From a virus: 31,507 bases of DNA. The stretch spans positions 1 through 31,507 of IMG/VR virus record IMGVR_UViG_3300032293_000762, one strand, 5' to 3'. This document shows positions 13,128 through 29,254 of the stretch, in pieces. Every line of letters starts with the position of its first letter. Position 1 is the first letter of the stretch. Both the position numbers and the translations under genes were made by a program. Under the pieces are notes generated by a model, which was not told where the DNA came from, made no database searches, and saw only the letters and a list, made by a program, of their open reading frames with translations.

Positions 13128-15001
13128 CAGGTGTTCCTCAATTCTGTTGCTATGAGTTCTGCGTCTCCTATTGCCGTGTCATTCACAGCATCTGCTGCAT
13201 TTCTTGTTATCTTTAGTCTATATGCATCACCTTGGGTCAGTCCCGATGGAACTCCTATGGTTGTTCCTACTACTCGAACAAATCCAAGTGTATTTCCAAG
13301 CACACCATTGAATGTTGTTCCTGTAGTAAATGCGTCTGAAGAGAATCCGCTTACTCCTGACATTCTTTCCATTTGAGCAAGCCATGCAACCGTAGAGCCA
13401 GTTGCAGTTGTTGCAGAGAAATGCAAGTACAGCCATAAACTTGAAGAAATTGCGAAGTTGCTGGGAACTATTCCAGAGAATACAGTTGATTCTGCGACCG
13501 TTGCATCAAAATCCAACACTGGAACAGAATTTCTTGTGTCAATTGTTGCATAATTGGTTGAAGGGGGCTGCGAATCCAACGCATTGAATATTCCGATTGT
13601 TTGTGTTGGTGTCAACAGATTAGAAATACTCACTATGCCTGTCTGTCCGTTTATAGAAATAACATAGTCTCCAACAGGACCCGTGACTCCAGTGGCTCCT
13701 GTTACTCCTTGAATACCTTGAGATCCTGTAGCACCAGTGTCTCCTGTTACTCCTTGAATACCTTGAGATCCTGTAGCACCTGTGGCTCCTGTTACTCCTT
13801 GTACTCCTTGAGATCCTGTAGCACCTGTAGCACCTGTAGCACCAGTGGCTCCTGTGGCTCCTGTTACTCCTTGAATACCTTGAGATCCTGTAGCACCTGT
13901 AGCACCAGTGGCTCCTGTTACTCCTTGAATACCTTGAGATCCTGTAGCACCAGTGGCTCCTGTAGCACCTGTTGAACCTTGAATACCTTGAGATCCTGTA
14001 GCACCAGTGGCTCCTGTTACTCCTTGAATACCTTGAGATCCTGTAGCACCTGTAGCACCAGTGGCTCCTGTTACTCCTTGAATACCTTGAGATCCTGTAG
14101 CACCTGTAGCACCAGTGGCTCCTGTAGCACCTGTTACTCCTTGGATACCTTGAGATCCTGTAGCACCTGTAGCACCAGTGATACCTTGAACGCCTTGAGA
14201 TCCTGTAGCACCTGTTGGACCAGTCGGTCCAACAGAACCCGCTCCACCCAAAGAAGAAATAGTTATACCAGATACGCTACTTGTTATGCTTATATTGCTT
14301 CCTGCAAGTATCTGAATAGAGCCAGTTAATGAATTAACAGAAGAAACAGGTCCTGTTGCACCTACCAGACCAGTGGCTCCTGTTACTCCTTGAATACCTT
14401 GAGATCCTGTAGCACCTGTTGAACCTTGGATGCCTTGAGATCCTGTAGCACCTGTAGCACCAGTGGCTCCTGTTACTCCTTGAATACCTTGAGATCCTGT
14501 AGCACCTGTAGCACCAGTGGCTCCTTGAATACCTTGAGATCCTGTAGCACCTGTAGCACCAGTATTTCCTTGGATGCCTTGAATTCCTTGGATGCCTTGT
14601 GGACCAGTTGTACCTGTTGCTCCGACATTACCAGTGGCTCCAATTGAGCCAGTTGCACCTGTTGCACCAACAGCACCAGCAACTCCACTAGTTCCTGTAG
14701 CACCAATAATGTATCCAATGGTAATACCAGAACCCAACACACCGAGAGAAGAAACAGGAAATACTACAAAATTACCATTAATGAGAGTTGCACCTGTATA
14801 CCCAATTCCTGTTACACCAGTTGCACCTGTAGGACCTACAGGACCGCCAGCAGGACCTGTTGCTCCCTGTTGTCCAGTGGCTCCTGTTGGTCCCTGTGGA
14901 CCGGTTGCTCCATTTACTCCATTTATTCCTAGAGGAGTGGCTACAAGAAGAGTTTGTCCTGTTTGTGCTGTTACAACTAAAACTGATGGGTCGTTTGCCA
15001 T
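13127..15001 (-). CDS. Collagen-like Gly-X-Thr repeat fibre protein
   Basis: A 624-residue protein with three collagen-like blocks: residues about 28-70, 100-218 and 254-444. Triplets are mostly GAT, GVT, GSQ and GIQ; the segment GSQG recurs 14 times. Between blocks lie short non-collagenous stretches, including [20 protein letters not shown] (221-240), whose pattern recurs at 448-461 ([14 protein letters not shown]). Residues 445-624 form a non-repetitive, beta-rich C-terminal domain, a likely trimerisation or binding head. Thr fills most Y positions, as in glycosylated bacterial collagen-like proteins such as BclA, while Pro is rare and Lys absent from the repeats. The ATG directly follows the stop of the preceding gene. 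I infer a trimeric virion fibre. Confidence 0.88.
13670..14242 (-). repeat. Collagen-coding repeat block 3 (main block)
   Basis: In-frame repeats built on a 9-base triplet register, with a recurring core encoding [10 protein letters not shown] followed by two to five GAT triplets. Ten copies of the GSQG core occur here. At the DNA level the copies are nearly identical (for example CCTTGAGATCCTGTAGCACC on the plus strand recurs), so slippage and recombination are expected to change copy number. Confidence 0.9.
14212..14235. repeat. 10-bp perfect inverted repeat with 4-base loop
   Basis: CTGTTGGACC, loop AGTC, GGTCCAACAG. It lies at the start of collagen block 3 and encodes part of VGPTGPTG. 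The mRNA could form a stable hairpin, but no T-tract follows in the direction of transcription, so it is not a terminator. Confidence 0.6.
14348..14704 (-). repeat. Collagen-coding repeat block 2
   Basis: Second Gly-X-Y block with four GSQG cores and an IQGIQGIQG run. It shares near-identical DNA with block 3, from which it is separated by a unique segment encoding residues 219-253. Confidence 0.85.
14792..14920 (-). repeat. Collagen-coding repeat block 1, more diverged
   Basis: Short N-terminal Gly-X-Y tract ([16 protein letters not shown] and following) with more Pro and less DNA identity to the other blocks. Confidence 0.7.
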
Positions 15002-15451: not shown

Positions 15452-16768
15452 TCATCCTTTTACTCTTTCCTTGAATTTCTTCTTGTATTTAGGCTGAGAA
15501 GTTCCTAGACTTAGCGTTGTTTGGTTTGGAACAGGTATCTTTGGTTGAGAAACCGCAACAGTGCTGTTCAATACACCAGGAACTGGTTGCTGTGTTCCCT
15601 GTAACATCTTCTTTTGCTGTTCCGCCAACTCCTTTTCTGCCTTTTCGGTTTCTTCTATTTTCTTGCGATATTCAACTAGATTATTTTGAATTCTTTGGAA
15701 TTCTGATGGAGGCAATTTTCCACTTGCTATCGCCTTAACACAGGCATCATATCCCTCTTGGAAAGAATGAACATAGTAGGCAGTAGAACCGACTTCATCT
15801 AAAAGCATCCAATCGTACACATCTTGAGAAATAAACAGGATGTCGTGCTTCGGAATGGGAATTGTTAATCCCATTTTCGCATACAGATATCCAATTCGTG
15901 GATATCCATTCATTCTGTAGATACGGGCAATATGATAAAGAGGCTCGGCTCGGCACGGACGGTAATTATATGCTCCAAGGAACAGATTGATAATCTGCTC
16001 TGTAGGCTTGCCTTGCATCATTGCAATAATTGCCATTCGGAATAGAGAATAGAAAACTTCCTCTTCCCACCCACCCATCTTTGCCCGCTTTTCATAGGCA
16101 TCAAAAGACTTGTCCCACTGTTGTGAGTCAAAATAAGACTGTGCAAGATAGAACTGATAGCGTGAATTTAGAGGCTCTTTTTCTAGAGCCTTCTCAAGTA
16201 CTACGGCATCCCGTGCATACTTTTCTGTTGGAGTGATGCCCTTATTACGAGCACCACCTTCCGTGCGAGCCTCAACATGGTAGCCAGGAATATCCAATTT
16301 TGCTAGAGAGAGATCAGGCTTGTTTGGGCAATGGGCATACTCATGCAGTACTCCCTCATAGCACCAGCCTATACCCGTCTTGAATATCTGATTTCTCCAC
16401 CACTCAAAGTTTCCACGCTTGATGCGAACAGAATATCCATCAAAATTTAACTGGTGGGGGAAGTTCATCTCTCCAACAAGATAGTCATCGGCATCAATCA
16501 TCCAGGCATAGTCGCCCTTACCGTCGCACAGTTTAAGCGCAGCAGAACGATTGGTGGCAAAGTCTTGCCATTCATGTTGGTGGAGTTCACCAGGAATACC
16601 CTTTTCGGCAAAGTACTGCTTGATAAGTTCCTGTGTTCCGTCAGTTGAACCTGTATCACAGATAACCCAGTAATCAATGAATTTATAAAGAGAATCAAAG
16701 CACTCTTTGATAATGTGCGTTTCATTCTTCACAATCATTGACAAGACAATCTTCTTCTTTTCACTCAT
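15452..16768 (-). CDS. GT2 glycosyltransferase with C-terminal TPR-like helical region
   Basis: A 438-residue enzyme. The N-terminal GT-A domain starts IVLSMIVKNETHIIKECFDSL, with CDTGSTDGT (38-45) and the metal-binding DADD at 92-95. Residues from about 170 to 340 are helical, with TPR-like repeats (SRYQFYLAQSYFDSQQWDKSFDAYEKRAK). A charged, coiled, low-complexity tail (EETEKAEKELAEQQKKML) ends in Lys-rich sequence. TPR fusion is usual for protein- or LPS-directed GT2 enzymes and may hold a protein acceptor. Base composition is like the phage core genes, unlike the AT-rich genes that lie beside it at higher coordinates. Confidence 0.87.
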   Translation of the reverse strand: MSEKKKIVLSMIVKNETHIIKECFDSLYKFIDYWVICDTGSTDGTQELIKQYFAEKGIPGELHQHEWQDFATNRSAALKLCDGKGDYAWMIDADDYLVGEMNFPHQLNFDGYSVRIKRGNFEWWRNQIFKTGIGWCYEGVLHEYAHCPNKPDLSLAKLDIPGYHVEARTEGGARNKGITPTEKYARDAVVLEKALEKEPLNSRYQFYLAQSYFDSQQWDKSFDAYEKRAKMGGWEEEVFYSLFRMAIIAMMQGKPTEQIINLFLGAYNYRPCRAEPLYHIARIYRMNGYPRIGYLYAKMGLTIPIPKHDILFISQDVYDWMLLDEVGSTAYYVHSFQEGYDACVKAIASGKLPPSEFQRIQNNLVEYRKKIEETEKAEKELAEQQKKMLQGTQQPVPGVLNSTVAVSQPKIPVPNQTTLSLGTSQPKYKKKFKERVKG

Positions 16769-16826
16769 AGTGTATTCCTTTAGTTGGTGTCTATCGCATA
16801 CCGAATATATGTATCAAGTTTTTACA

Positions 16827-17399
16827 TCATTGAATCAATTTCAACTCTACAATACCAGGACTATCCATAGATACGCCAATAATTTTATATTTCGTTTCAT
16901 TCACAAAATCCATAACAGCAGTTGTAACATCTGCACAAAATGTCCAATCATCTATCAATAAATGCGGAATACCCAATCTGTTGCATTCTCTTAAGTCAGA
17001 TAAACAAACTTCATATGAATGATCGCCATCTATCCATGCACAATCAAAACTCTCATCAATACTCTTCATAGTATGAAGAGTGTTTCCTTGTATGAAGTTT
17101 ATACCCTCTGTGCTAGTTTCTTGAAGAACCATATTCACCATATCCTGACACCACTCATGTACATCTAGTGTTGTTATTTTACAATTTGGAAATAGAAGTT
17201 TTACAATGTAGCAAAACTGTGCTTTGTTTGTTCCAGTTTCAAGAAGTTTTGTAGGTTTAATTTGGTTTAACCACTTAATCTTGTATTCCAAATGAGGACC
17301 AGATCCCATTCCCTGTGCATACAGGGTAGAACCTTCTCCTCCTTTTTGATTCAATCTGTTTACAAACTCATAGTTTATTTTTATTGGCATTGATGTCAT
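16827..17399 (-). CDS. Class I SAM-dependent methyltransferase (Methyltransf_24-like)
   Basis: A 190-residue Rossmann methyltransferase. Motif I is KLLETGTNKAQF (51-62), the acidic end of strand 2 is TTLDVHEW (77-83), and AWIDGDHSYEVCLSDL (121-136) is the hallmark of the Methyltransf_24 family often found in glycan clusters. DDW after strand 5 is also present. The ATG has AAGGAACACC before it. It probably O-methylates a sugar or a nucleotide-sugar product; the substrate is not visible. About 58 bases without a gene separate it from the TPR glycosyltransferase; I see no clear promoter there. Confidence 0.8.
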   Translation of the reverse strand: MTSMPIKINYEFVNRLNQKGGEGSTLYAQGMGSGPHLEYKIKWLNQIKPTKLLETGTNKAQFCYIVKLLFPNCKITTLDVHEWCQDMVNMVLQETSTEGINFIQGNTLHTMKSIDESFDCAWIDGDHSYEVCLSDLRECNRLGIPHLLIDDWTFCADVTTAVMDFVNETKYKIIGVSMDSPGIVELKLIQ

Positions 17400-17412
17400 T
17401 GGTGTTCCTTAA

Positions 17413-18228
17413 TTAAGATAAATGGTTCAAAGATTCTTCTATTCGTTTAGCCATTGCTTCTGCGCTATATTTTTCTTTGTAAAATGCATTACCTCTCTCT
17501 ACTAATTCCTGCTTTTCTTTGTTACTCATGTTGTTTATAGATAACACAAGATTTGGAATTTCTCTAGGATCATCATATTCTATAAATGGATGTCCTTTAT
17601 AAAAAGGATAATTTGGTCTTCTGCTTGTAACAATTATATTTCCTGCGACTAGTGCTTCGTGTAGTCGTGCTATCTCTGGACTCATGTAACCAGAGCAACA
17701 AACAGAAACAACGCTGTTTCTCATTTCTTCTTGATATTCTGTAAATGGCAATCCCTTTGCAAATCCATCATTCCACATTATTCTACAATCTTCTCTGCTC
17801 TCTAAAGAAGAGAGAGCATCTCTTACTGCCATTCTTGCTGGAGAAAGCCATAGAGAGGAAAACAAGAGATATTTTCTCTCTTCTATTGTTTTTTGTTGCT
17901 TGAATGGATATTCGTGGTTAAAAACCACAGGCATTGGTATTATCTTTTTGAATCTAAAATAATCAAAAGGAGCATAGTCCTTTAAAATCAACACAACATC
18001 ATCTCTATTATAGTAATAATGAAGACGATGCCATTCATCTTCATGGTCAAAAATTATCTTTGGTTTATTTGAGATTGGTAATGCTGCTATTGTATCGGAT
18101 CTAGTGGGATGGGAAGATACACTATAGAACTCAAACCTTTCCTTTATTTCTTGTGAAAGGGCATCACACATCCTGCTCGTATAATCAGAACGGGGATACT
18201 CTTTGGGAATAATATTGGTGTATTCCAT
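17413..18228 (-). CDS. GT-B-type glycosyltransferase, GT47/exostosin- or GT1-like
   Basis: A 271-residue protein without a GT-A DxD motif. The C-terminal half reads VVSVCCSGYMSPEIARLHEALVAGN in outline (173-197), then IIVTSRRPNYPFYKG, a pattern of GT-B sugar-nucleotide binding (a conserved Glu with EALxAG). Exostosin-like and spore-envelope glycosyltransferases show similar blocks. It ends with helices (NKEKQELVERGNAFYKEKY), usual for GT-B enzymes. It starts 3 bases after the RfbH-like gene. The family call is a resemblance; linkage and sugar are unknown. Confidence 0.65.
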   Translation of the reverse strand: MEYTNIIPKEYPRSDYTSRMCDALSQEIKERFEFYSVSSHPTRSDTIAALPISNKPKIIFDHEDEWHRLHYYYNRDDVVLILKDYAPFDYFRFKKIIPMPVVFNHEYPFKQQKTIEERKYLLFSSLWLSPARMAVRDALSSLESREDCRIMWNDGFAKGLPFTEYQEEMRNSVVSVCCSGYMSPEIARLHEALVAGNIIVTSRRPNYPFYKGHPFIEYDDPREIPNLVLSINNMSNKEKQELVERGNAFYKEKYSAEAMAKRIEESLNHLS

Positions 18229-18231: not shown

Positions 18232-19575
18232 TTATTGCTTTCCACTGATAGTAAAGTATTCGTTAACTTTTGATTCTATGTAGTCCATTTGAACATCTGT
18301 GATAACAGGACTTGTCCCAAGAAAGAAAGTATCCGTTGTTATTTTAGTAGATATTGGGAAATCTCTTTTTGCATCGCCAGAATAAACACCAGAGTATGCT
18401 GGTTGTAGTAAAACATTGCCACCAAAGTAGTTTCTTGTCTGTATCTTATTGTCCTCAAGATACATTGTGAATTCATTTCTCTTCATCTTTACTCCATCTC
18501 TAATTGTCAACGCAAAAGCAAACCAAGAGGGATCTGCCTTATCTGTTGCCTTTGGAAGATGGAAGATATCTTCATACTTTGAGAATACAGAATAAAGACG
18601 ATTGAAATTCTTTTTGCGTAGTTCGATCATCTTATCCAATTTCTTTAGTTGGACAAGACCTATCGCTGCCTGCAAATCTAATGGCTTTATATTATAGCCT
18701 ATCTCTTCATAGACATACTTGTGGTCAAATATTTCGTCTGGAAACTCTGGCAACCAATTGCTAAATCTCTTCTTGCACATACCGTTCTTTAGACAAGAAG
18801 CACCCTTACCAGAACAATAACAACCTCTTCCCCATTCTCGTAGGCTTTTAACGACCATTTCTTGTTCTTCTGTTCTACACGCTACAAATCCACCTTCACC
18901 CATAGTCATGTGATGTGCTGGATAGAAAGAACAAGAGGAAAATTGACCGAAAGAACCAAGAAGTTTTCCGTCATATTTACTACCAAGTGCATCACAACAA
19001 TCCTCTAATAGAATCAAATCGTATCGTTCAACGATATCCATTAGACGATCCATATTTGGAGGATTACCCAATACATGAGCAAATGCTAGAACTCTAGCAC
19101 CATTTTTTGCGGCAGCCTCCACTTGGTCTAGATTTAGATTTAGTGTGTCTAGATCAATGTCAACAAATACTGGTTGGAATCCATTCTGTATAATGGGATT
19201 TATTGTTGTAGGAAAGCCAGCGGCTGGAGTAATTATCTTTGTTCCTGGCTGTAGATTGTATAATTTTCTAGACTTTAGAGCAGAAACCATCAATAGATTT
19301 GCACTTGATCCGCTATTTGTAAGCGCACCATAGTTCTTTCCAAGTCTGCCTCTAAACTGTCTTTCAAAACGGATACCATTATCTCCGAGTGCTAACCAAC
19401 CATCAAGAAAGCATTCAATACCAGCAACAAATTCTTCATCATCAAAATAAGATCCAGCGTATTGAACCGGATCCTTTCCTGGTGTCCAAGATTTTATTTG
19501 TCGCTTTCTTTTAAGTTCTACTAATTCTCTAATCTTGCGATCAATATCATCATTTTCAATATTCACATCAATCAT
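18232..19575 (-). CDS. RfbH/E1-like NDP-4-keto-6-deoxyglucose 3-dehydrase (PLP, His type, Fe-S candidate)
   Basis: DegT/DnrJ/EryC1-fold PLP enzyme of 447 residues. The usual PLP-Lys motif (S-F-Y-P-T-K) is SFYPAHHMTMGEGG here, so His221 replaces the Lys. That exchange marks the C-3 deoxygenating E1 (RfbH/DdhC) and ColD enzymes, which bind PLP/PMP without a Schiff base. A Cys-rich stretch C252, C254, C261, C267, with C193/C194 about 58 residues earlier, fits the [2Fe-2S] cluster of E1 and is absent from ColD. DHKYVYEEIGYNIKPLDLQAAIG agrees with RfbH. It should remove the 3-hydroxyl of a CDP- or dTDP-4-keto-6-deoxyhexose. No E3-type reductase is seen in the window. It overlaps the epimerase gene by 8 bases. 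Confidence 0.88.
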   Translation of the reverse strand: MIDVNIENDDIDRKIRELVELKRKRQIKSWTPGKDPVQYAGSYFDDEEFVAGIECFLDGWLALGDNGIRFERQFRGRLGKNYGALTNSGSSANLLMVSALKSRKLYNLQPGTKIITPAAGFPTTINPIIQNGFQPVFVDIDLDTLNLNLDQVEAAAKNGARVLAFAHVLGNPPNMDRLMDIVERYDLILLEDCCDALGSKYDGKLLGSFGQFSSCSFYPAHHMTMGEGGFVACRTEEQEMVVKSLREWGRGCYCSGKGASCLKNGMCKKRFSNWLPEFPDEIFDHKYVYEEIGYNIKPLDLQAAIGLVQLKKLDKMIELRKKNFNRLYSVFSKYEDIFHLPKATDKADPSWFAFALTIRDGVKMKRNEFTMYLEDNKIQTRNYFGGNVLLQPAYSGVYSGDAKRDFPISTKITTDTFFLGTSPVITDVQMDYIESKVNEYFTISGKQ

Positions 19576-20341
19576 GGTTTAACCTTTTATAAGTTTCCTT
19601 TATACCAAAAAAAAGACCAATCTCATTTATACCACAGCCATGTGGATTTCCACAATAGAATTCCAACTCTTTGCTTTCTTCAACAAGAATAGGAACTGTA
19701 TGTGTATCTAGACTGTTTATGAACTTCGCAATCTCCAACAAGGTATACTTTTGTTCATAAGAACAGTTTATTGTTTTAGGAAGACTTGAATTAGTCAGAT
19801 AAAATTTGACTAAACTTACAAGATCTTCCATATAGTAAAAATCCATGATTTTATTTGAGTGAACCATCATCGGTTGTTTATTGATATACCGTATGATATT
19901 GCTCTTTATAAATCTAGTAGACAATTCATCATGGTCAAATACACCAAATATCCTAATATTGTGGCATTTTTCATCTCTATCAATCTGATCTGCAATCCAT
20001 TTTTTGCTCTTTCCATATGGGGTTTCAATAGAGAATATTTCTGCCCCTGATCCAAACGATATCAATCTGTCAAATTTATCTCTATTATTCATAATGTTTT
20101 TGAACATCAGAACATTATCTTCGTAGACTTTTTCATCATCTTTTTTAAGCCTACTTCCACCAGAAATAGCAGTATGAATAACAACATCAAATTTTTTATC
20201 AATGAACCACCCATTGATAGAGTCGCTATTCAATAGATCAAAGTCATCTCTTGTTATTGTTGTAACTTCATATAAATTTGATAGGGATGGTACTAGACTT
20301 CTGCCAAGATATCCTTTGCTACCTGTCACAAGTATTTTCAT
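19568..20341 (-). CDS. NAD(P)-dependent epimerase/dehydratase (extended SDR)
   Basis: A 257-residue nucleotide-sugar SDR. The dinucleotide motif is TGSKGYLG (6-13 from the chosen start), and the active-site YGKSK gives Tyr-x-x-x-Lys; ISFGSGAEIF supplies the Ser. FDVVIHTAISGG replaces the more usual HLAA. The ATG at 20339-20341 is preferred over one 9 bases upstream because it overlaps the ThDP-enzyme stop as ATGA. It lies between the 3-dehydrase and the ThDP enzyme, so it probably reduces or epimerises the 4-keto sugar made there. That step is inferred from position, not from specificity residues. Confidence 0.82.
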   Translation of the reverse strand: MKILVTGSKGYLGRSLVPSLSNLYEVTTITRDDFDLLNSDSINGWFIDKKFDVVIHTAISGGSRLKKDDEKVYEDNVLMFKNIMNNRDKFDRLISFGSGAEIFSIETPYGKSKKWIADQIDRDEKCHNIRIFGVFDHDELSTRFIKSNIIRYINKQPMMVHSNKIMDFYYMEDLVSLVKFYLTNSSLPKTINCSYEQKYTLLEIAKFINSLDTHTVPILVEESKELEFYCGNPHGCGINEIGLFFGIKETYKRLNHD

Positions 20342-22065
20342 CCAAGCCACCTTATTTCATTGAGTTCACCAGGAATAAATTTCCCATCATCTCCCAATTT
20401 AGCAACAACCTTTGGTTCGTGGTATTCTTCTGGATCAGTAAACACTTCACATACACACGGACCTTCTTTTGACAAGAAATCTTTTAGAACCGAATCTATC
20501 ATCCGATTATTGCTTATTTTACAATAAGGTATATCATATGCATTGATTATTCGTTCAAAGTTTGGAAATGAAACTCCACTATTTTTTTCCGATGCAACAT
20601 ATTTGCCCCCAAAGAAGGCATTTTGCGTGGTCTTGATGGAAAGATATCCTTCATTGTTTAGAAGAATCAGTTTGATTGGTAAATCGTAATGCTTCATCGT
20701 TTGTAGTTCGTGAATGTTTAGATGAAGACTACCATCCCCTTCTATGCAAATAATTTTATGCTTTATCGAAGCCCCCAATGCAGCAGGAAGACCATATCCC
20801 ATCGGAGCACATCCTGTATTTGTAAACAGTCTTTGATTATTTTTTAGATTCAAAACTTGCATGGTGACTATATTTGCAGAACCATCGCTGGTCACGATAT
20901 GACAATCTGTCGGTAGCATTTCAGATAATCTTTCTATAAATGCATAGTGACTGACATACTTTGTTTTGTTTCTATGCCTATCCAACACCTTTGGTGTCTT
21001 ATTAAGACTATTACACTCGTCAAGCCAATCTGATGGTGTTTTGGGAATATCAAATTTGAGCAATGCTTCTATAAATTGCTTTGCATCAGAATGTATTGCC
21101 ATATGCGGAAAAATAGTTGGCTTTGATAATTCTGCTGAATCTATATCAACATATACACGATGTGCTTGTTTTGCAAATCCTTTGAAATTGTAACCAGTTT
21201 GACGAACATATAGTCTTGACCCTATTGATAGCAAGAAATCACACTCACTTAATAGATTGTTTGCACATATTTGTGCGTGTGTTCCAAAACGACCACAGTA
21301 ATAACGATAATCGCTATTTACGATATCATTTCCATTTACAGCAGATATCACTGGTATGTCTGTTCTTCTTAAGAGTTCTTGTAAATGTTCTTCTGCTTTA
21401 CCAAGCCTAATTCCATTACCAACAATCAAAAGAGGCTTCTTTGCTTTTTCCCATTGGTGTATCACTTCTACGATTTCATCTTCTGATGCATTAGGAATCT
21501 CTATTGGTTCTGTAAAACCAACAAGAGCATCTGGTTCTATATTTTCTGATTGAATGTCTAAAGGAATATCAACCCAAACAGGACCAGGTCTTCCAGATGT
21601 AGCCAATGCACAGGCTTTTTCTAAATGAAAACGAATTTCTTTAGAATCATTAACCTGAACAGCATATTTTGTCATATTCTTAACAGACTCAACTATATTA
21701 AACTCTTGATCTCCTAATTGACGCAAACCAAGACCTGTGTGATTGGTTGTCATATTTTTATTAACTTGTCCACTGATTACAATCACAGGAATAGAATCAA
21801 GCCAACTACAAAGAGTACCTGTCATTGCATTAGTGCCACCAGGTCCACTAGTGACTACACAGGCTCCCAACTTATTGTTGATTCTTGCATATCCCTCTGC
21901 TGCAATAGAGGCTGCTTGTTCGTGATGGGTAGCAACATATTGAACTCCCTCTGTTTTGCCAAGAGAATCTATCAAAAAAATACAGCCACCACCAGATACC
22001 GTAAATATTGTATCTACTCCATATTTGTCACGAAGAAATTGAATTACATAATCAGATAGACGCAT
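20338..22065 (-). CDS. Thiamine diphosphate enzyme, acetolactate-synthase-like (possible YerE-type sugar-branching enzyme)
   Basis: A 575-residue ThDP enzyme. The catalytic Glu is Glu49 in HHEQAASIAAEGYAR; VTSGPGGTNAMTG and GDQEFN follow, as in the acetolactate synthase family. The ThDP/Mg motif begins GDGSLHLN at 443 and ends NN near 471. A stand-alone catabolic or branched-chain role is unlikely inside a sugar cluster. In Yersinia, YerE is a related enzyme that adds a two-carbon unit from pyruvate to C-4 of a CDP-3,6-dideoxy-4-keto sugar, the product of the RfbH-type step. The same pairing is present here. AGAGGAAG precedes the ATG; it overlaps the cyclase gene by 14 bases. Substrate is inferred. 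Confidence 0.85.
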   Translation of the reverse strand: MRLSDYVIQFLRDKYGVDTIFTVSGGGCIFLIDSLGKTEGVQYVATHHEQAASIAAEGYARINNKLGACVVTSGPGGTNAMTGTLCSWLDSIPVIVISGQVNKNMTTNHTGLGLRQLGDQEFNIVESVKNMTKYAVQVNDSKEIRFHLEKACALATSGRPGPVWVDIPLDIQSENIEPDALVGFTEPIEIPNASEDEIVEVIHQWEKAKKPLLIVGNGIRLGKAEEHLQELLRRTDIPVISAVNGNDIVNSDYRYYCGRFGTHAQICANNLLSECDFLLSIGSRLYVRQTGYNFKGFAKQAHRVYVDIDSAELSKPTIFPHMAIHSDAKQFIEALLKFDIPKTPSDWLDECNSLNKTPKVLDRHRNKTKYVSHYAFIERLSEMLPTDCHIVTSDGSANIVTMQVLNLKNNQRLFTNTGCAPMGYGLPAALGASIKHKIICIEGDGSLHLNIHELQTMKHYDLPIKLILLNNEGYLSIKTTQNAFFGGKYVASEKNSGVSFPNFERIINAYDIPYCKISNNRMIDSVLKDFLSKEGPCVCEVFTDPEEYHEPKVVAKLGDDGKFIPGELNEIRWLG

Positions 22066-23077
22066 ACACTTCCTCTAATACTTCCAATACTAAAGAATGA
22101 TCTTGTATTTCTGTAACAAATGGTTTATTTCCATTCATCAAAACCATTGTTAGTTTTCCTGTACTCTTCTTATCAGCAAGAACTAATGGTAAAAGTTTTT
22201 CGAAATCAAACCAACTCTCTTCAAATTTTAGTTGACTCTTTGATAAGAGATTAAATCCATTTTTGTCGATAATATCATATTGCTCATTTTGATAGCCGAA
22301 CTTTTTTGATATTCTCATTGCAATAATTGAACCAACTATAACTGCTATTCCATGAGGAATTTTATAGTTAGAGATAGATTCTATGCTATGTCCAAATGTG
22401 TGTCCAAAATTTAGAAATCTTCTATTTCCTCTATCGAACTCATCATCTTCGATGATACTGATTTTATATTCAAGCCCATCATGTACCATCTTTAAAATGT
22501 CACCATCAATATCAAAAGAATCCATCTTATTTTGAAGAATATGAAATTTGTATATTTCTCCAAATCCACTGATTACATCAAGAGTTGACAGAGTTTCTAT
22601 AAATTTTGGACAAACGATAATCTCATCTGGTGGATAAAATGTACCTAGAATATTTTTTCTACTTAAATGATTCAATGATGTCTTTCCACCAATGCAACTA
22701 TCAGCCTGAGAAAGAAGTGTTGTTGGTACTAATGTATAGTCAATCCCTCTACAATATGTTGATGCACAAAATCCAACAAGGTCTTGTAGAATGCCACCAC
22801 CAATAACAACTAGTTTGGTATTAATGTTTGCTCTTTTCTCTATAAGACGATTATAAATCTCAATTGCACCATCTATGTTTTTTCTATCCTCTATACACTC
22901 TACGATTATTGGATCTTTCAAAGAAAGAGAGGGATATAAATTAGCAACATTGGAGTCTATAACTGTAATGATTCTATTCTGATTTAGAATATCAGCAATA
23001 TCCCCAATACTATCGGTAAATTCAACCGAGTATCTTTTCATTTTAGAATCAACAGATAATCTCAATGAGCCGTACAC
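22052..23077 (-). CDS. 3-dehydroquinate-synthase-like sugar phosphate cyclase
   Basis: A 341-residue member of the DHQS fold, which uses NAD+ and a metal to cyclise a keto-sugar phosphate. VVIGGGILQDLVGFCASTYCRG, LVPTTLLSQADSCIGGKT and NILGTFYPP are the family cofactor and phosphate blocks. The metal ligands are Glu174 and, 16 residues apart, His226 and His242; Lys177 follows the Glu as in AroB. HGI replaces the HGE of true AroB proteins, and no other shikimate gene is near, so a cyclitol- or valiolone-type product is as likely as dehydroquinate. The start is GTG, with GGAGG 6 bases before it; an ATG 36 bases downstream has no such site. Confidence 0.85.
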   Translation of the reverse strand: MYGSLRLSVDSKMKRYSVEFTDSIGDIADILNQNRIITVIDSNVANLYPSLSLKDPIIVECIEDRKNIDGAIEIYNRLIEKRANINTKLVVIGGGILQDLVGFCASTYCRGIDYTLVPTTLLSQADSCIGGKTSLNHLSRKNILGTFYPPDEIIVCPKFIETLSTLDVISGFGEIYKFHILQNKMDSFDIDGDILKMVHDGLEYKISIIEDDEFDRGNRRFLNFGHTFGHSIESISNYKIPHGIAVIVGSIIAMRISKKFGYQNEQYDIIDKNGFNLLSKSQLKFEESWFDFEKLLPLVLADKKSTGKLTMVLMNGNKPFVTEIQDHSLVLEVLEEVYASI

Positions 23078-23697
23078 TGATAACCTCCATCAATTCTAAT
23101 ATTCTGACCAGAAATGAATGTATTTTTGATTGTCAAAAAATAAACAAGTTCTGCTACTTCTTCGGGCAATCCTAATCTTTTTACAGGAACAATATTAGAC
23201 AAACGAATCAGTTCTTCTGAAGAATTATTTTTACGAGTTAAATCTGTTTCTATAAACCCAGGAGATACTGTATTTGAAAGAATACCCATAGATGCATATT
23301 CTGCGGTCAAAGATAATGTCATAGAATGAAGAGCAGATTTGCTTGCAGCATACGCTGATCTTTTTTCTTTAGCCAAATCAATCCATATGCTTCCTATATT
23401 GATGATTCTACCAAATCTTCTCTCCACCATATGAGGAATGCACTGTTGAATAATCTCTAAAGGAGATAGATAATTTACTCGCATTACTTCAGTAGAAGAA
23501 ATTTCACAAAATTTCTTCAGTGGGTTAATACCGGCGTTATTTATTACTATGTCAAAAGAACAGTCATTCAAAACTACAGGATGAGAAAGATCGAGTTCTT
23601 CTCTAGTTGGACAATAAACATCATGTCCATCACAAATAAATCTTTCTACTATAGCCTTTCCTATTCCTCTAGACCCACCAGTAATCAATACTCTCAT
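23062..23697 (-). CDS. Classical short-chain dehydrogenase/reductase
   Basis: A 211-residue SDR of the FabG type. It has TGGSRGIGKA (6-15) for NAD(P), NNAG (53-56), an active-site Ser103 in INIGSIW, and Tyr116-x-x-x-Lys120 in YAASK. The C-terminus ends in the usual DGGY block. It is short compared with the typical 240-260 residues, with a brief N-terminal linker region, but all catalytic residues are there. Its start overlaps the aldolase-like gene by 4 bases (ATGA) and its end overlaps the cyclase by 16. It probably reduces a keto intermediate of the same pathway, possibly the ring ketone left by the cyclase. Confidence 0.88.
   Translation of the reverse strand: MRVLITGGSRGIGKAIVERFICDGHDVYCPTREELDLSHPVVLNDCSFDIVINNAGINPLKKFCEISSTEVMRVNYLSPLEIIQQCIPHMVERRFGRIINIGSIWIDLAKEKRSAYAASKSALHSMTLSLTAEYASMGILSNTVSPGFIETDLTRKNNSSEELIRLSNIVPVKRLGLPEEVAELVYFLTIKNTFISGQNIRIDGGYQCTAH
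23084..23088 (-). promoter_or_regulatory. Ribosome binding site supporting the GTG start of the cyclase
   Basis: Minus strand GGAGG, 6 bases before the GTG at 23075-23077. It lies inside the codons for the C-terminal Gly-Gly-Tyr of the preceding SDR, so part of the match may reflect coding constraint. Confidence 0.4.
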
Positions 23698-24509
23698 CCT
23701 TTGTCCTCTCCTAGAGAGGAGATGGACTGATTGATTCTATCTTGTATCATCTGTATTCTCTTTATATCTTGATTTGCCAGAGAGAGATAATATTCATGCT
23801 TTGCCTTAAGCCATTCGTATTCTAACATTTGTCCTTTAGACAAAGCCCGTGAAAGATTCTTTAGAGAAATAGAAGGATCGTAGATCGCATATCTTGTCTC
23901 AAACTTGTCCAACAAACCTTCTGAATGAAGTCTGCGAAGAAAATCCAAAGAATCAATAGATACGGCTCCACCCAAGCAGAGTTTCAAGCCCTTTTCTTTT
24001 GCTTTGACAAAGACATTTCTAGTCAATGTGTAAATTTCTTCACTATTTACATAAGACCTATCTTTTCCCATTGAAGACACCAAATCTACTCTACCAACAG
24101 TCACTCCATAAAGACTATCTGCTTCTTTTGAAGAGAGCATCTTTTCTGCGTTTTGTATAGCAGATATGGTTTCAATATTGATGTTGAGTTGAATAGAAGA
24201 AAGATTGTCTTCAGAAATATGAGCCTTTGTTGCCTGTATGAATTTCTTTAAGCCAAATTCAGATTCAACCATAGGTGCAACGATACCCTTTACTCCTATA
24301 ATAATTGCATCTTTCATATCTCTGATTGCTTCTGGACCACCAATCTTTAAAGTCAATTTAGTTTTTGCTTCATTGCATATTTGCTTAAGACGAATAGTCT
24401 CATTGAAAGAAGCACCTTCATCTTCAAACGATGTTTTAATTCCAACCAAACCTTCATTTTCAATAAGGTCTGTCATTATCTTTACGCATTTAAATTCTCT
24501 TGTGTTCAT
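23694..24509 (-). CDS. HpcH/HpaI aldolase/citrate lyase family protein
   Basis: A 271-residue TIM-barrel candidate. The pattern GVKGIVAPMVES (about 74-85), then LNINIETISAIQNAEKML, and VTVGRVDLVSSMG fits the metal-dependent HpcH/HpaI class, in which Glu and Asp at such places hold the metal. LCLGGAVSIDSL follows as a late barrel strand. A helical C-terminal tail with EYYLSLANQDIKRIQMIQDRIN is extra. These enzymes make or break C-C bonds with pyruvate- or oxaloacetate-like substrates, so it may supply or attach a 2-keto-acid unit. It overlaps the SDR by 4 bases. The reaction here is unknown. Confidence 0.75.
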   Translation of the reverse strand: MNTREFKCVKIMTDLIENEGLVGIKTSFEDEGASFNETIRLKQICNEAKTKLTLKIGGPEAIRDMKDAIIIGVKGIVAPMVESEFGLKKFIQATKAHISEDNLSSIQLNINIETISAIQNAEKMLSSKEADSLYGVTVGRVDLVSSMGKDRSYVNSEEIYTLTRNVFVKAKEKGLKLCLGGAVSIDSLDFLRRLHSEGLLDKFETRYAIYDPSISLKNLSRALSKGQMLEYEWLKAKHEYYLSLANQDIKRIQMIQDRINQSISSLGEDKG

Positions 24510-24528
24510 ATTATTTTTCCTTGCAATA

Positions 24529-25482
24529 TCACCAAATAAATGATCTTGTGTAATATTTGACTATATCAACTAAAGTGTCGTCAAATTTGACAGATGCACT
24601 CCAACCTAAATTTTTCAATTTTGTATCATCAAGAGCATAGCGAACATCTTGTCCAGGTCTACTGCATGACCAATCAATATACCTGTCTAAATCACTTGAG
24701 TCAAGCCCATATGCATTAAGAAGTTTGACAACAACATCAATGTTCTTTTGCTCATAACCACCACAAATATTGTATATCTCGTTTTTCACACCAGCGTCAA
24801 CTATAGTCATAACTGCTCTAGCGGTATCTTCTGCATGAAGCCAATTTCGTATAGGAGATCCATTATTATGGAGTGGAATTTTTCTTCCCAAAGAAAGGTA
24901 TTTGCAAGTCTTTGGAATCAATTTTTCTACATACTGACCTATTCCATAGTTGTTTGTTGGTCTAACAATGACATAAGGAATACCATATGTTCTTGCCCAT
25001 GCCAGTATCAACATATCAGCAGCAGCCTTGGTAGCCGAATATGGATTAGATGGCTTTAAGATGTCATTCTCCGAATGAGCACCTTCGATGATATCACCAT
25101 AAACTTCATCAGTGCTAAAATGCAAAAGAGTTGGCATTTTCCCTGTCTCTTGTCTGTAATTTCTCATCAACTCTAATATCTTATGCACACCATTGATATT
25201 TGAATGGACAAAATCTGCGCTATTTGCTATGGAGTTTCCAACATGAGTTTCTGCGGCTGTATTGATGATGTAGTCACAATCATATAGAAATTTAAGATCG
25301 TTGATATCGCAATGAACAAACGAAAAGTTTTCGTACTGTTCAAACTCCTTCAGCAAATTTTTGTTGGCGGCATATGTGATTTTATCAACACCTTTGACAA
25401 ACCATCCTCTTTGTAAACAAAGACGGGTCACATACGAACCAATAAAGCCAAGACATCCTGTAACATAGACAATTTTCTTCAT
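24529..25482 (-). CDS. dTDP-glucose 4,6-dehydratase-like enzyme (RmlB-like)
   Basis: A 317-residue extended SDR. It has TGCLGFIGS (8-16) for NAD, NTAAETHVGNS, the catalytic Thr-Asp-Glu in STDEVYGD (123-130), and Tyr148-x-x-x-Lys152 in YSATK. RPTNNYGIGQYVEKLIP and RNWLHAEDTARA are the RmlB substrate blocks. The triad Thr-Asp-Glu is diagnostic for 4,6-dehydration, giving an NDP-4-keto-6-deoxyhexose, the natural substrate type of the RfbH-like enzyme. Whether the nucleotide is dTDP, CDP or another is not readable here. It starts with an ATGA overlap on the next epimerase. No nucleotidyltransferase is seen in the window, so the activated sugar probably comes from the host. Confidence 0.88.
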   Translation of the reverse strand: MKKIVYVTGCLGFIGSYVTRLCLQRGWFVKGVDKITYAANKNLLKEFEQYENFSFVHCDINDLKFLYDCDYIINTAAETHVGNSIANSADFVHSNINGVHKILELMRNYRQETGKMPTLLHFSTDEVYGDIIEGAHSENDILKPSNPYSATKAAADMLILAWARTYGIPYVIVRPTNNYGIGQYVEKLIPKTCKYLSLGRKIPLHNNGSPIRNWLHAEDTARAVMTIVDAGVKNEIYNICGGYEQKNIDVVVKLLNAYGLDSSDLDRYIDWSCSRPGQDVRYALDDTKLKNLGWSASVKFDDTLVDIVKYYTRSFIW

Positions 25483-26339
25483 ATTGATTCTTTCTCGTAG
25501 AAGTCCACAAGTCTATGTATCACCCCATCAATATCGTAGTTTGCCCTAAATCCATAAGATGTTAACTTACTTATATCCAAATAAGAATGCCTTACTTGTA
25601 CTATGTTGTGAAATTGAGTTGGTTCTATCTGTATTATCTTTGATGTGGAGTTAGAGTAGTCTATTGCTTTCTGAACAAGATCACCCAACATATTAGGTTC
25701 TCCACTGCCTATGTTGATAATCTGATTCGTTGGAGCATGGTCAACACAATGCTTTATTGCAGCACAAACATCATCAACATAGATGTAATCTCTTAAAACT
25801 TTTCCGCCATAGTAGAGTTCAATATCTCTGTTTTGTGAAACTTCTTTGATTAGATATTGCAATGCATTTTTCTTTTTAGAAATCTTTCTATCACCTTCAC
25901 CCAATACATTAGCAAGACGAAATATTCTATACTTGATGTTGAATGTATTGCAAAAAGAAACTAGCAACTGTTCTGCACAGTGCTTTGTGATAGAATAAAA
26001 GCCTGTAGGATTGCATACAGAAAAATCTTCTCTAAATGGAATCTCGTTATTTTGCCCATATACAAACCAAGAACTGACAAAGTTGAAAACAGTATCAGAA
26101 TTTCTAGGAGTATTTTCTAAAACTTTCATCAATACCTTTAGATTAGTATCAATGTCAATATGAAGATCTGTATGAACATTATAATTATCAACTGTACTTA
26201 TCAGATACAGTATATCGTTGGTTTTTGGTACATAATCCATTCTTTCAATACGAGTGATATTGTTTGGGTACATCTGACAGAATCGTTGTCCTATGAATCC
26301 ACTGCTACCAAATAACGAAATTGGTTTTTCTATTTTCAT
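25479..26339 (-). CDS. NAD-dependent epimerase/dehydratase (extended SDR)
   Basis: A 286-residue nucleotide-sugar SDR. Its cofactor motif is FGSSGFIG (10-17), the active-site Tyr115-x-x-x-Lys119 is in YSITK, and VSSWFVYGQ carries the Ser. RLANVLGEGD and RDYIYVDDVCAAI are typical of the GDP/UDP-sugar epimerase branch. The ATG at 26337-26339 is favoured; a GTG 9 bases upstream is possible. It overlaps the RmlB-like gene by 4 bases, so the two are probably translated together and may act one after the other on the same nucleotide sugar. Confidence 0.83.
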   Translation of the reverse strand: MKIEKPISLFGSSGFIGQRFCQMYPNNITRIERMDYVPKTNDILYLISTVDNYNVHTDLHIDIDTNLKVLMKVLENTPRNSDTVFNFVSSWFVYGQNNEIPFREDFSVCNPTGFYSITKHCAEQLLVSFCNTFNIKYRIFRLANVLGEGDRKISKKKNALQYLIKEVSQNRDIELYYGGKVLRDYIYVDDVCAAIKHCVDHAPTNQIINIGSGEPNMLGDLVQKAIDYSNSTSKIIQIEPTQFHNIVQVRHSYLDISKLTSYGFRANYDIDGVIHRLVDFYEKESI

Positions 26340-26352
26340 AATAAACACTCAT

Positions 26353-27129
26353 TTATAAAATAACTTTATCAAACTTTGCTATATTATGTTTATTCTTCTG
26401 TACAAAGTCTTCATATGGATATTGCTGATAGTCTGGAATGACCTTAACTATAGGAGTTGGATTCATTCCACAAATTCCATCTGGATGTTCCTTGTATGCC
26501 AATTTGGCAAACTCTCTATTGAATCTTGGCTTATTTTGTTGAAATACTTCAATTTTATCATTTTTCAAATCATATGCTGCTTTATTGTATAGATTTGGTA
26601 TGGATATACTTGGTATAGTTCGTCCAAACATTTTAATAAATCTATGAACAATATCTCCGTCTTCTTCACCAAAGCCGCACAATCTTTCGTCAAAATATCC
26701 AAGTTTATACATGATTGATTTCGTACAAACAAAATGAGAAAATTCATTATTGATTTTGAAAAATTCTTCTTTGGTATTTTCTATATGAGACTGTATAATT
26801 TCGTATGCATTCTTATTTTCAAACGCAACATCATCACACAATATCAAATTGTATTCTGTCTTACTGAAAATAACAATAGTATTCCAAAGTTTTGCTAGGC
26901 TTTTGAATTCTGCACAAAATATAGGATAAACGCTTTTGTATTTCTTTGTCAGATCAAGCATCTCTTGTCTATATTCTTCAGTCATTTCTTCATCATTATT
27001 TCCATTTATTATTAGAACTATGTCAGCATAATCTGGAATAGATGATTTCAGTTTACCCAAAAGGTCTTTTATCATCTCTTTTCTTTGTTTAAAGGTGACT
27101 ATTCCTATAGTCATTTCAATCTTATTCAT
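26353..27129 (-). CDS. Glycosyltransferase-like protein, GT-A (GT2-like)
   Basis: A 258-residue protein that starts MTIGIVTFKQRKEMIKDLL in its second segment, the beta-alpha start of GT2 enzymes. A metal-binding acidic pair lies in LILCDDVAFE (Asp99-Asp100), and GYFDERLCGFGEEDGDIVHRF is the GT2 acceptor/base region. The C-terminal region has HPDGICGMNPTP and many aromatic residues. It is strongly AT-rich at the DNA level. The nearby ATG has AAAGGAGAG some distance upstream. Sugar donor and acceptor cannot be read. Confidence 0.75.
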   Translation of the reverse strand: MNKIEMTIGIVTFKQRKEMIKDLLGKLKSSIPDYADIVLIINGNNDEEMTEEYRQEMLDLTKKYKSVYPIFCAEFKSLAKLWNTIVIFSKTEYNLILCDDVAFENKNAYEIIQSHIENTKEEFFKINNEFSHFVCTKSIMYKLGYFDERLCGFGEEDGDIVHRFIKMFGRTIPSISIPNLYNKAAYDLKNDKIEVFQQNKPRFNREFAKLAYKEHPDGICGMNPTPIVKVIPDYQQYPYEDFVQKNKHNIAKFDKVIL

Positions 27130-27137
27130 AATATAAT

Positions 27138-27989
27138 CTACTCTCCTTTATCATTTTGGTGTATTCCCATACCCCAATCATTTAAATTAGGAATATTGTA
27201 TCTCTTGATATTTTCTTGAATAAACTTGTACTTGTAGTTGTTTTCTTTATTCAAATTTTTGTAGATATTTGAATCTACCTTTAGTGGAAAATCAAATTGT
27301 TCGTATGTCCATGCAAAGTTATTAACAGATGCATCATATGCACTGGCTGAAACTGTATGTCCACCAAATTTAGTTCTAGTGATGAAGTCACGAATCTTCC
27401 AATAATACTGCTTGATTGCTACAGTTTCTTTGTCCAACCATTGTAGATGAGCAATGAATAATTGTGGTACTCGTATCATTACTTGGTTACTCGGAACAGG
27501 AAGATGTTCAGAATGCATTTGTGCTGGCTTAAACAAGCACCGACTGGTGTAGGAACCTATCCTATCCTTTAGATTGAATTTCCAAGGACCATCTGTTCTT
27601 ATTTGATTTATATTTGTGTATTGAATCCATTGAAGATGAATAAGAGTATCCCTATTATTTGTAAGGATTTCTTCAAGTTGTAATTTTGTAATACTACCAT
27701 CTAGATATTCATCAGTATCAAGACATATGATGTGTCCAGAGTGCTTAAATGCTTCATCAAAAAGTCGTTGTCTTATATTAGATTCGATATCAAGAATATC
27801 TTCTGTTTTATTGGACTTCAATACTGCAAGAATATTGTATTTCTCTCTGTTGTCCATCAAATATTCATAAGTACCATCATCAGATTCATCATCCATAAAA
27901 ACAAAACCATCGGCATATTTTTGCCATATTGGTAACATTTCTTTTAGAAGAAACAGTTCATTTTTTATCAATGTCATTTGAACTATCAT
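27138..27989 (-). CDS. Glycosyltransferase family 2-like protein (Glyco_tranf_2_4 type)
   Basis: A 283-residue GT-A enzyme. It begins MIVQMTLIKNELFLLKEMLP, has FMDDESDDGTYEYL (31-44) in the nucleotide-binding region and the metal motif as CLDTDEYLD (89-97). LFIAHLQWLDKE resembles the His/Trp-containing C-terminal part of this branch, where enzymes often read short glycan chains. GGAGATACA precedes the ATG. The gene is AT-rich like its lower-coordinate neighbours and forms one end of the AT-rich cassette. Confidence 0.8.
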   Translation of the reverse strand: MIVQMTLIKNELFLLKEMLPIWQKYADGFVFMDDESDDGTYEYLMDNREKYNILAVLKSNKTEDILDIESNIRQRLFDEAFKHSGHIICLDTDEYLDGSITKLQLEEILTNNRDTLIHLQWIQYTNINQIRTDGPWKFNLKDRIGSYTSRCLFKPAQMHSEHLPVPSNQVMIRVPQLFIAHLQWLDKETVAIKQYYWKIRDFITRTKFGGHTVSASAYDASVNNFAWTYEQFDFPLKVDSNIYKNLNKENNYKYKFIQENIKRYNIPNLNDWGMGIHQNDKGE

Positions 27990-28001
27990 TGTATCTCCGA
28001 T

Positions 28002-28628
28002 TTATCGGTAATCTGCCATTGGCATTGAAGTTACAAGATTATTTCTGCCATCATCTTGAAAGAACATAGGATAGTTTGTGCAGTAAACATTATGATTCTT
28101 CATATCGGTTGCAATACACTCATCGCAATATTGTTCTAATGCATTGCATTTCAATAGATTTTGTATAGTATGTTGAACATAATCTTCATTCAGATAGAGT
28201 ATTGCATGGATACCAAGCATATCTTCTACCTTACAGTAATCCTCGTCTACTGCCTTCTTTTTTGTTCCCCAACAGACAGATTGTCCTTCGTTCATTCCCC
28301 ATACAGAAGAGCCAAGATAAATGCAATCTGCATCTAGAGGAATATTGATATCACTTTTGAAGTGTGAATCTATAACACCAATATCATCTTCAAGAATAAT
28401 AAAAGGTGGCTTAAACATTTGCATCGCCTTAATATGGGCATTTGCAACAAGAGCAGACTTCTTCTTTTGAATTTCAATGAAAGACAGTCCTGTTTTATCC
28501 AATATCTTTCCATTTATCTGATGGGTATTTGTAAATCCAAATTTGGAGAAGATTTCAGACATCTTTTGATGTCGATCTTTTGCAGATTCTATTGTGATCC
28601 ACAAAACAGGCAATGAAGTTATATTCAT
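28002..28628 (-). CDS. GT25-like glycosyltransferase (LPS/collagen galactosyltransferase superfamily)
   Basis: A 208-residue protein. It reads PVLWITIESAKDRHQKMSEIF at the start, as in GT25 enzymes (an N-terminal strand, then a conserved Arg and helix), has the metal motif as IILEDDIG (Glu80-Asp82), and has a preceding helix ALVANAHIKAMQMF typical of the family (S/C-H-x-x-a pattern). GT25 contains bacterial LPS galactosyltransferases and animal collagen galactosyltransferases. Base composition is near the phage core level, unlike the AT-rich genes that follow. It starts with an ATGA overlap on the GT32-like gene. Confidence 0.72.
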   Translation of the reverse strand: MNITSLPVLWITIESAKDRHQKMSEIFSKFGFTNTHQINGKILDKTGLSFIEIQKKKSALVANAHIKAMQMFKPPFIILEDDIGVIDSHFKSDINIPLDADCIYLGSSVWGMNEGQSVCWGTKKKAVDEDYCKVEDMLGIHAILYLNEDYVQHTIQNLLKCNALEQYCDECIATDMKNHNVYCTNYPMFFQDDGRNNLVTSMPMADYR

Positions 28629-29254
28629 CGAACCGCTCCATATTCATAACCACTTCCAGGAGTTGTTCCCCAATACTGCATAGCATATATCTTTCCCTTT
28701 CCACTATACTGTAATCCAGAATAGTGTCTTGGAATAAAGTAATGGCTAGGGTAAATAGTCATCTTGTTATAGCGCATCTTGCAAACTGTAGAAGTGAGCA
28801 GAGCAGGACCAGTTATCTCCCATGTTTGGAGCGGATGGTAATTCATGTCCTGTCGTTGACCTATTTGGTTTATCATTTCCCAAAGAAACTGATTCTTTGG
28901 CATTGAAGCAAGATATCCATTCGACATTAATCCAGGTCGAACATACTCATTCTCAAAGCAACAGAAAGCCTCGTTGTCCACAAGATCATCATCAAGAGGT
29001 CTAATGCACTCGGCATCAGCATCAATAAAAAAGCCTCCTTCTTGGTGAAGAAGTTGGTATCGAAGGATGTCTGCTTTTCCTGCAAGAGAGGGACATTGGT
29101 CAAAATGTCGCTTGATCCAAGATGTTGGCATATTCTCTTCGGTCCACAATTTGTGTTCCCAAGTTGGGTTCAAGTCACGCCATGTATTGATAAAGCGATC
29201 AGGTCGCTTGGACTGATCGCCTAACCAGATTTGATGAATAATCTTCGGTATCAT
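28625..29254 (-). CDS. GT32-like glycosyltransferase (DXD sugar-binding type)
   Basis: A 209-residue enzyme starting IPKIIHQIWLGD, the hallmark of GT32 (OCH1/capsular polysaccharide) enzymes. ADILRYQLLHQEGGFFIDAD (61-80) contains the conserved Arg and the DxD metal motif (Asp78, Asp80). The end (YAMQYWGTTPGSGYEYGAVR) has the late His/Trp-like aromatic block. GAGG lies 8 bases before the ATG. It is the first accessory gene read after regA in the order of transcription from 45... 25 bases separate it from the regA stop. Composition is core-like. Confidence 0.85.
   Translation of the reverse strand: MIPKIIHQIWLGDQSKRPDRFINTWRDLNPTWEHKLWTEENMPTSWIKRHFDQCPSLAGKADILRYQLLHQEGGFFIDADAECIRPLDDDLVDNEAFCCFENEYVRPGLMSNGYLASMPKNQFLWEMINQIGQRQDMNYHPLQTWEITGPALLTSTVCKMRYNKMTIYPSHYFIPRHYSGLQYSGKGKIYAMQYWGTTPGSGYEYGAVR

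Follow-up and report, generated by a model that had tools for sequence, protein, structure and literature searches.

The closest described relatives of the system analyzed here build branched sugars with a thiamine diphosphate (ThDP) enzyme. In Yersinia pseudotuberculosis, yersiniose A is made by YerE together with RfbF, RfbG and RfbH. ErwE, in the erwiniose pathway of Pectobacterium atrosepticum, and MMAR_2332, for a caryophyllose-type sugar, belong to the YerE-like ThDP enzymes and take hydroxylated keto acids with chains longer than that of pyruvate (PMC12247030). The acceptor of both YerE and ErwE is CDP-4-keto-3,6-dideoxyglucose; YerE prefers pyruvate, and ErwE refuses pyruvate and takes 4-hydroxy-2-oxo acids (PMC12247030). 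We analyzed a run of eight genes in IMG/VR virus record IMGVR_UViG_3300032293_000762, whose complete sequence of 31,507 bases is termed the window. The run is likely to serve as a phage cassette for making a long-chain C4-branched deoxy sugar by a variant of the YerE/ErwE-type pathways.

A sequence-only reading had described eight consecutive genes for unusual-sugar chemistry. All eight open reading frames (ORFs) are present, intact and co-directional on the minus strand at 18232-26348, and profile scores uphold the families assigned to them: RmlB-like, RfbH, ThDP, dehydroquinate synthase (DHQS)-like, HpcH/HpaI and three further short-chain dehydrogenases/reductases (SDRs).

25479-26348, minus strand: SDR1, an extended SDR (epimerase/reductase), accessory; PF01370, E 1e-27
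24529-25482, minus strand: RmlB-like nucleoside diphosphate (NDP)-glucose 4,6-dehydratase; TIGR01181, 310 bits, cut-off 365
23694-24509, minus strand: putative HpcH/HpaI-fold aldolase; PF03328 (HpcH_HpaI), E 3e-10
23062-23697, minus strand: short SDR, FabG-like, 211 residues; PF00106, E 2e-34
22052-23077, minus strand: DHQS-like sugar-phosphate phospholyase/cyclase of the TIGR04425 type; PF01761 (DHQ_synthase) and TIGR04425, 318 bits
20338-22065, minus strand: YerE-like ThDP carboligase, putative C4-branching enzyme; three TPP domains
19568-20350, minus strand: RmlD/epimerase-like SDR, putative branch-ketone reductase; PF01370, E 1e-16
18232-19575, minus strand: RfbH/E1-type 3-dehydrase (C3 deoxygenation); NF011936, 476 bits, cut-off 423

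Six of the seven junctions overlap by 4–16 bases and the seventh, between the RmlB and HpcH genes, is a 19-base gap. This layout had been taken to show joint expression; it fits a single transcript with translational coupling but does not prove it.

Like the yersiniose A pathway, the run combines a 4-keto-6-deoxy sugar, an E1-type 3-dehydrase and a YerE-like ThDP enzyme. It differs in the donor and in the dehydratase: pyruvate is the sole donor for yersiniose A, whereas here HpcH and SDR plus DHQS (or a HAD protein) always accompany the ThDP enzyme, and the phage has an RmlB-like dehydratase where Yersinia has RfbG. Marine cyanophage surface-sugar islands, such as that of Synechococcus phage RN05-S, contain homologues of RfbH (43%) and SDR1 (47%) among glycosyltransferases but lack HpcH, DHQS-like and YerE-like genes. 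Literature searches for the gene combination of the cassette found nothing, and no text was found in which TIGR04425 DHQS-like enzymes or this HpcH family are tied to the erwiniose or caryophyllose pathways, a comparison made by text and not by gene clusters.

A conserved gene core in phages and bacteria

Scanning IMG/VR with the HpcH protein identified 45 contigs (63–87% identity). The order RmlB-HpcH-short SDR-DHQS-like-ThDP-SDR is kept in nearly all complete ones and recurs in about 30 non-redundant viral contigs. When the ORFs of 37 non-redundant contigs, including the window, were clustered, the six core families were each found in 29–36 of them, and the glycosyltransferases, SDR1 and the position of RfbH varied. 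Recurrence of the six-gene core is far beyond chance. In most viral loci, RmlB adjoins HpcH or lies close by, and the final SDR lies 3' of the ThDP gene in nearly all complete ones. Only some viral loci include SDR1, and copies 47–48% identical adjoin RfbH in two marine phage records. The movable parts among phages are RfbH and SDR1, not the aldolase or the cyclase. An ordinary DegT-family protein (about 380 residues, aminotransferase-like) replaces RfbH in several loci (L010, L013, L018, L019, L022 and L037-L041); therefore, the acceptor sugar probably differs among phages.

No HpcH gene was found in 50,697 GenBank phage records, in which matches to the DHQS-like and ThDP proteins (29–35% identity) resemble host housekeeping genes. 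A single-protein pattern search of IMG/VR with the DHQS-like protein returned no relatives, though the HpcH query later gave dozens; this type of search overlooks fast-evolving proteins.

In bacteria, a pattern scan of GTDB found one close relative, Arsenicibacter rosenii, in which RfbF, RfbG, HAD, ThDP, HpcH and RfbH genes are adjacent. In 793 further bacterial genomes, an HpcH profile search found 16 strong matches, or about 2%, a count that includes the two centre genomes. The core genes lie in O-antigen-type clusters whose orders differ from the viral one and which also encode RfbF, RfbG and RfbH; RfbH, accessory in phages, is standard there. The neighborhoods read RfbF-RfbG-RfbH-ThDP-SDR-DHQS-HpcH-SDR, or have HAD in place of SDR and DHQS. 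At locus L074, the scores are 458 bits for RfbF (cut-off 300), 487 for RfbG (278), 722 for RfbH (423) and 452 for the TIGR04425 DHQS protein (400), whose gene is beside those for HpcH and ThDP. In both settings, the ThDP gene is accompanied by genes leading to a 4-keto-(3),6-(di)deoxy NDP-sugar: RmlB and RfbH in the window, RfbF-RfbG-RfbH in bacteria.

The sequence-only reading had placed the cyclase and aldolase outside the yersiniose-type route and had allowed for two interleaved pathways. The bacterial clusters contradict the first point, as they group the DHQS-like, short SDR and HpcH genes with RfbF, RfbG, RfbH and the YerE-like ThDP gene. Because these genes share clusters, one pathway is likelier than two, and interleaving is unlikely. 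Scattering of the genes in relatives or broken active sites, named beforehand as evidence against a joint pathway, was not found: the core is syntenic and the tested active sites are intact.

More distant HpcH relatives (L050-L053, L087 and Ilyobacter) lack the ThDP gene and were excluded as other subfamilies. One of them, on contig NZTP01000088 of an Altibacter metagenome-assembled genome (L051), is a 377-residue protein encoded beside NAD-epimerase and cytidylyltransferase-like genes; this contig, whose first gene is T4-like (gp32-like), resembles a phage fragment and is probably misbinned. At L052 (9938-10720) and L053 (2035-2823), genes of a distant HpcH clade lie immediately 3' of an SpsF/NeuA-like cytidylyltransferase gene, an arrangement that hints at another ulosonic-acid-type pathway.

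Exchange between HAD and the short SDR–DHQS-like pair

Every HpcH locus was tabulated, all loci having been found through HpcH. The ThDP gene is present in every complete locus of this HpcH group. The short SDR and DHQS-like genes occur without HAD in 44 loci with HpcH and ThDP (36 viral, 8 bacterial), and HAD occurs with neither SDR nor DHQS in 13 (8 viral, 5 bacterial). No complete locus carries both sets, and none carries neither. The short SDR always co-occurs with the DHQS-like gene and never with HAD. A separate scan for HAD-motif ORFs agrees with this table, except for small unrelated ORFs in L024, L033 and L041, and it missed one HAD in the frameshifted contig L042. In L042 (viral, 8381-14599), the genes for RmlB, HpcH, ThDP and a TPR glycosyltransferase are frameshifted or broken into several tblastn pieces each, through decay or assembly error.

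At least three kinds of HAD gene occur: a viral protein of 131 residues with all four HAD motifs, a 222-residue HAD_2 type (L049) and HAD-IIA proteins of 254–264 residues. An HpcH tree was built without near-copies, with 37 rows for SDR plus DHQS and 13 for HAD; the latter include L082, in which ThDP was not found by tblastn. The state changes at least seven times in the best tree, and at least five changes are forced by well-supported branches alone, with bootstrap not fully settled; seven is the likeliest number of swaps. Loci L074 and L075 differ by the swap, and their ThDP and HpcH proteins are 86% and 83% identical.

The simplest reading is that HAD and the SDR–DHQS pair serve the same job on the same intermediate. 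Since the alternatives are a phosphatase and a sugar-phosphate phospholyase, this intermediate is probably a phosphate ester, HAD folds also occurring in non-phosphatase enzymes. The probable substrate of both sets is a phosphorylated keto acid from HpcH; the ThDP enzyme would later join it to C4 of the keto sugar.

The same table bears on whether one operon serves two products, with ThDP and pyruvate yielding a yersiniose-type sugar, and HpcH with DHQS plus SDR (or HAD) contributing to the same glycan a distinct residue, either carbocyclic or an ulosonic acid. DHQS-type enzymes normally cyclize, all DHQS catalytic positions are kept, and the distant HpcH relatives of L051-L053 adjoin ulosonate-type cytidylyltransferase-like genes. 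However, HpcH and ThDP of this group are never apart in complete loci, an enzyme that would activate an acid product is not among the conserved genes of the core, and the exchange leaves ThDP nearly unchanged in the L074/L075 pair. We therefore regard two products as unlikely.

Enzymes and proposed pathway

The ThDP protein had been labeled acetolactate-synthase-like. Among solved structures, its nearest relative is JanthE (8rph), at 382 bits, compared with 243 for acetolactate synthase II, other acetolactate synthases scoring no higher; for the family profile the values are 505 and 364. JanthE is a YerE-like enzyme that forms tertiary alcohols (PMC12188165). With JanthE about 140 bits ahead, the former label does not hold, while the proposed likeness to yersiniose synthesis does: the ThDP protein is closer in sequence to characterized YerE-like enzymes than to acetolactate synthases, and the nearest relative of RfbH is E1, with its histidine kept. 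Scores and gene context rule out a housekeeping role as acetolactate synthase. The ThDP motif is a canonical GDG, versus CDG in JanthE, and Lys567 of JanthE aligns with a nearly invariant lysine in an HEPK stretch of the family.

RfbH matches E1 (3bcx) at 365 bits. The histidine that replaces the pyridoxal phosphate lysine in E1 is retained in a YPAHH stretch, and YPAHHMTMGEGG and a Cys-rich CYC...C...CKKRF both align with 3bcx. For the RmlB-like protein, below the TIGR01181 cut-off (310 vs 365), the best solved match is 2hun (243 bits), and the catalytic stretch STDEVYGD (DE/YxxxK) is intact.

The best-scoring family for the DHQS-like protein is TIGR04425 (AroB-related putative sugar phosphate phospholyase, cyclizing), listed at NCBI as a hypoth_equivalog with putative function only. 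The score is 318.5 bits (cut-off 400, not reached), compared with 235 for aroB (cut-off 305, not reached); the L074 homologue passes the TIGR04425 cut-off (452 > 400). Score and gene context rule out a housekeeping role as AroB (3-dehydroquinate synthase). The AlphaFold2 model (predicted local distance difference test, pLDDT, 92.4) has DHQS structures as its best fold matches. All 14 checked active-site positions are without variation among 22 viral sequences and 6 bacterial homologues (R130, D146, K152, N162, E194, K197, K250, R264, N268, H271, H275, H287 and the DKK lysines, in what we take to be A. nidulans DHQS numbering, with spacings checked by hand). Two basic residues among them are presumably carboxylate ligands in DHQS, and their retention may fit a 2-keto acid substrate.

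For HpcH, the AlphaFold2 model (pLDDT 94.6) is nearest to class II pyruvate aldolases (7et9, 4b5w and others; 14% identity, template modeling score 0.5–0.6). E113 and D142 are invariant at metal-site positions, equated with metal ligands by motif and not by superposition. A sequence search of the PDB gave no match, and comparison with viral structure models gave no clear relative.

If the DHQS-like enzyme does form a ring, the ThDP enzyme might open or ligate this carbocycle, like cyclohexane-1,2-dione hydrolase (CDH) or IolD, so that the branch would carry or derive from a true cyclitol. An intact DHQS fold with its residues favors this scheme, and CDH, a ThDP relative, was reported to ligate ketones after mutation (PMC12247030). 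It is nevertheless very improbable, as the HAD variants lack the cyclase, yet in bacteria have a near-identical ThDP enzyme.

Our inferences on the substrates, step order, product and destination of the C4-branched sugar pathway draw on which genes are present, how they are conserved, the unbroken active-site residues, the HAD/(SDR+DHQS) exchange and the closest enzyme relatives. RmlB would generate an NDP-4-keto-6-deoxyhexose, and in the window phage RfbH would remove the C3 hydroxyl of this keto sugar. HpcH would combine pyruvate with a phosphorylated aldose to form a 2-keto-3-deoxy acid phosphate. The DHQS-like enzyme would take off the phosphate by oxidation and elimination, and the resulting product would be reduced by the short SDR; a HAD phosphatase would take over this job from the two in sister loci. 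The YerE-like ThDP enzyme would then decarboxylate the keto acid and attach the acyl group at C4 of the keto sugar, forming a ketone that the last SDR would reduce. The finished sugar would be attached by flanking glycosyltransferases, with a host surface glycan or the virion as the likeliest target.

The product is probably an erwiniose- or caryophyllose-type branched sugar, judging from the predicted enzymes. 4-Hydroxy-2-oxo acids are the product type of HpcH/HpaI aldolases. RfbF, RfbG and RfbH make CDP-4-keto-3,6-dideoxyglucose, the YerE/ErwE acceptor, and the predicted proteins of the bacterial clusters supply exactly this route, which supports the proposed pathway. Caryophyllose is a 3,6,10-trideoxy sugar of 12 carbons. 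As a conjecture, a seven-carbon acid, with reduction and not cyclization of the eliminated intermediate, would give a skeleton that matches caryophyllose at every carbon: six carbons would come from the dideoxyhexose and six from the acid, with deoxy positions at C3, C6 and C10. Only tentatively, then, do we suggest that a TIGR04425-type DHQS enzyme may be the phosphate-removing step for the donor keto acid of YerE-type branching, its product being reduced by the paired SDR rather than cyclized; many uncultured phages would then carry, as a mobile cassette, a route to 12-carbon sugars resembling caryophyllose.

Several points weigh against the branched-sugar pathway. Known DHQS-superfamily enzymes cyclize their product, which would leave no keto acid for ThDP. 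About half of the viral loci are without RfbH, and the window phage lacks RfbF and RfbG, so the sugar nucleotide may be of the CDP, dTDP or another type. HpcH is remote from every characterized aldolase, and by eye, at 14% identity, no histidine lines up with the His/Asp dyad of HpaI, so its substrate assignment is a guess. The viral 131-residue HAD was recognized through motifs alone (Pfam E 0.017–0.15). Finally, the activities of all cassette proteins are predictions.

Phage context and destination of the sugar

The window comes from a T4-like phage: gp45 (sliding clamp), gp44, gp62 and regA lie at one end and gp43 (DNA polymerase), UvsX and the gp41 helicase at the other, in T4-like replication order. 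The glycan-gene cargo lies between regA and gp43, and its GC content is about 30–37%, versus 39–48% for most flanking phage genes. Given that gp43 is 50% identical to that of Synechococcus phage ACG-2014f, a cyanophage with a cyanobacterial host was considered; such a host is unsupported because no psbA-family gene was found in the 19 cassette-bearing records searched. The cassette directly follows gp45-gp44-gp62-regA in the window, L007, L014, L020 and L043. In other contigs it neighbors UvsX or gp41 (L045, L003) or gp44 types that are more distant (L038-L040), and it also occurs in a 358-kb record (G007/L034). From these placements, the cassette looks to have spread across phage lineages.

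The surroundings include six or seven glycosyltransferase-like genes, a methyltransferase, a collagen-like fiber gene and a lectin-like gene. The glycosylation genes on either side of the run are:

26353-29254, minus strand: four glycosyltransferase-like genes, two GT2-like, one unassigned and one Gly_transf_sug; only 28625-29254 (PF04488) passes a curated cut-off
15452-18228, minus strand: downstream glycosylation genes by domain matches, a glycosyltransferase-like gene (17413-18228), a methyltransferase (16827-17399) and a GT2 with TPR (15452-16768)

At 12153-15001, next to the glycan cargo, lie a collagen-like tail fiber gene and, after it, a gene with a Laminin_G_3/ConA-like lectin domain; a functional link between the fiber and the sugar genes is possible.

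Phage genes of this kind usually target a host surface glycan. The sugar could instead decorate phage DNA or virion proteins, which would change the destination and leave the chemistry as it is. T4-like phages do glycosylate DNA, the fiber and lectin-like genes lie just downstream, and a borderline DUF1599 nucleotide-modification domain is encoded at 10793-11116. On the other hand, the thymidylate-synthase gene encodes ThyX and not a dCMP hydroxymethylase, and the bacterial homologues sit in O-antigen-type clusters with RfbF/G/H. On balance, a DNA or virion destination is possible but the less probable one.

The gene labeled thymidylate synthase by PHROGs (413-1078) is a flavin-dependent ThyX (PF02511, E 7e-47; top PDB match 6j61). 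Glycosylation of hydroxymethylcytosine through a dCMP hydroxymethylase was rejected on this identification, and there is therefore no sign of hydroxymethylated cytosine within the window. A dUTPase-like gene (11127-11660) and a gene for an N6/N4 DNA methylase (8568-9866) neighbor the small ORF with the DUF1599 match (nucleotide modification associated domain 1). A Cpn10-like ORF at 8290-8571 (PF00166, E 2e-4) is possibly a gp31-type co-chaperonin.

The natural exchange of HAD with DHQS plus SDR would tie four poorly placed families, the TIGR04425 DHQS-like proteins, this HpcH clade, the YerE-like ThDP enzymes and the paired SDR, to one pathway. The side-chain origin of long-branched sugars such as erwiniose and caryophyllose thereby becomes open to direct test with a small number of purified enzymes, and biocatalysis would gain new C–C bond-forming enzymes. 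For the phages, the predicted cassette would mean that a near-complete exotic-sugar pathway travels among uncultured T4-like and other phages.

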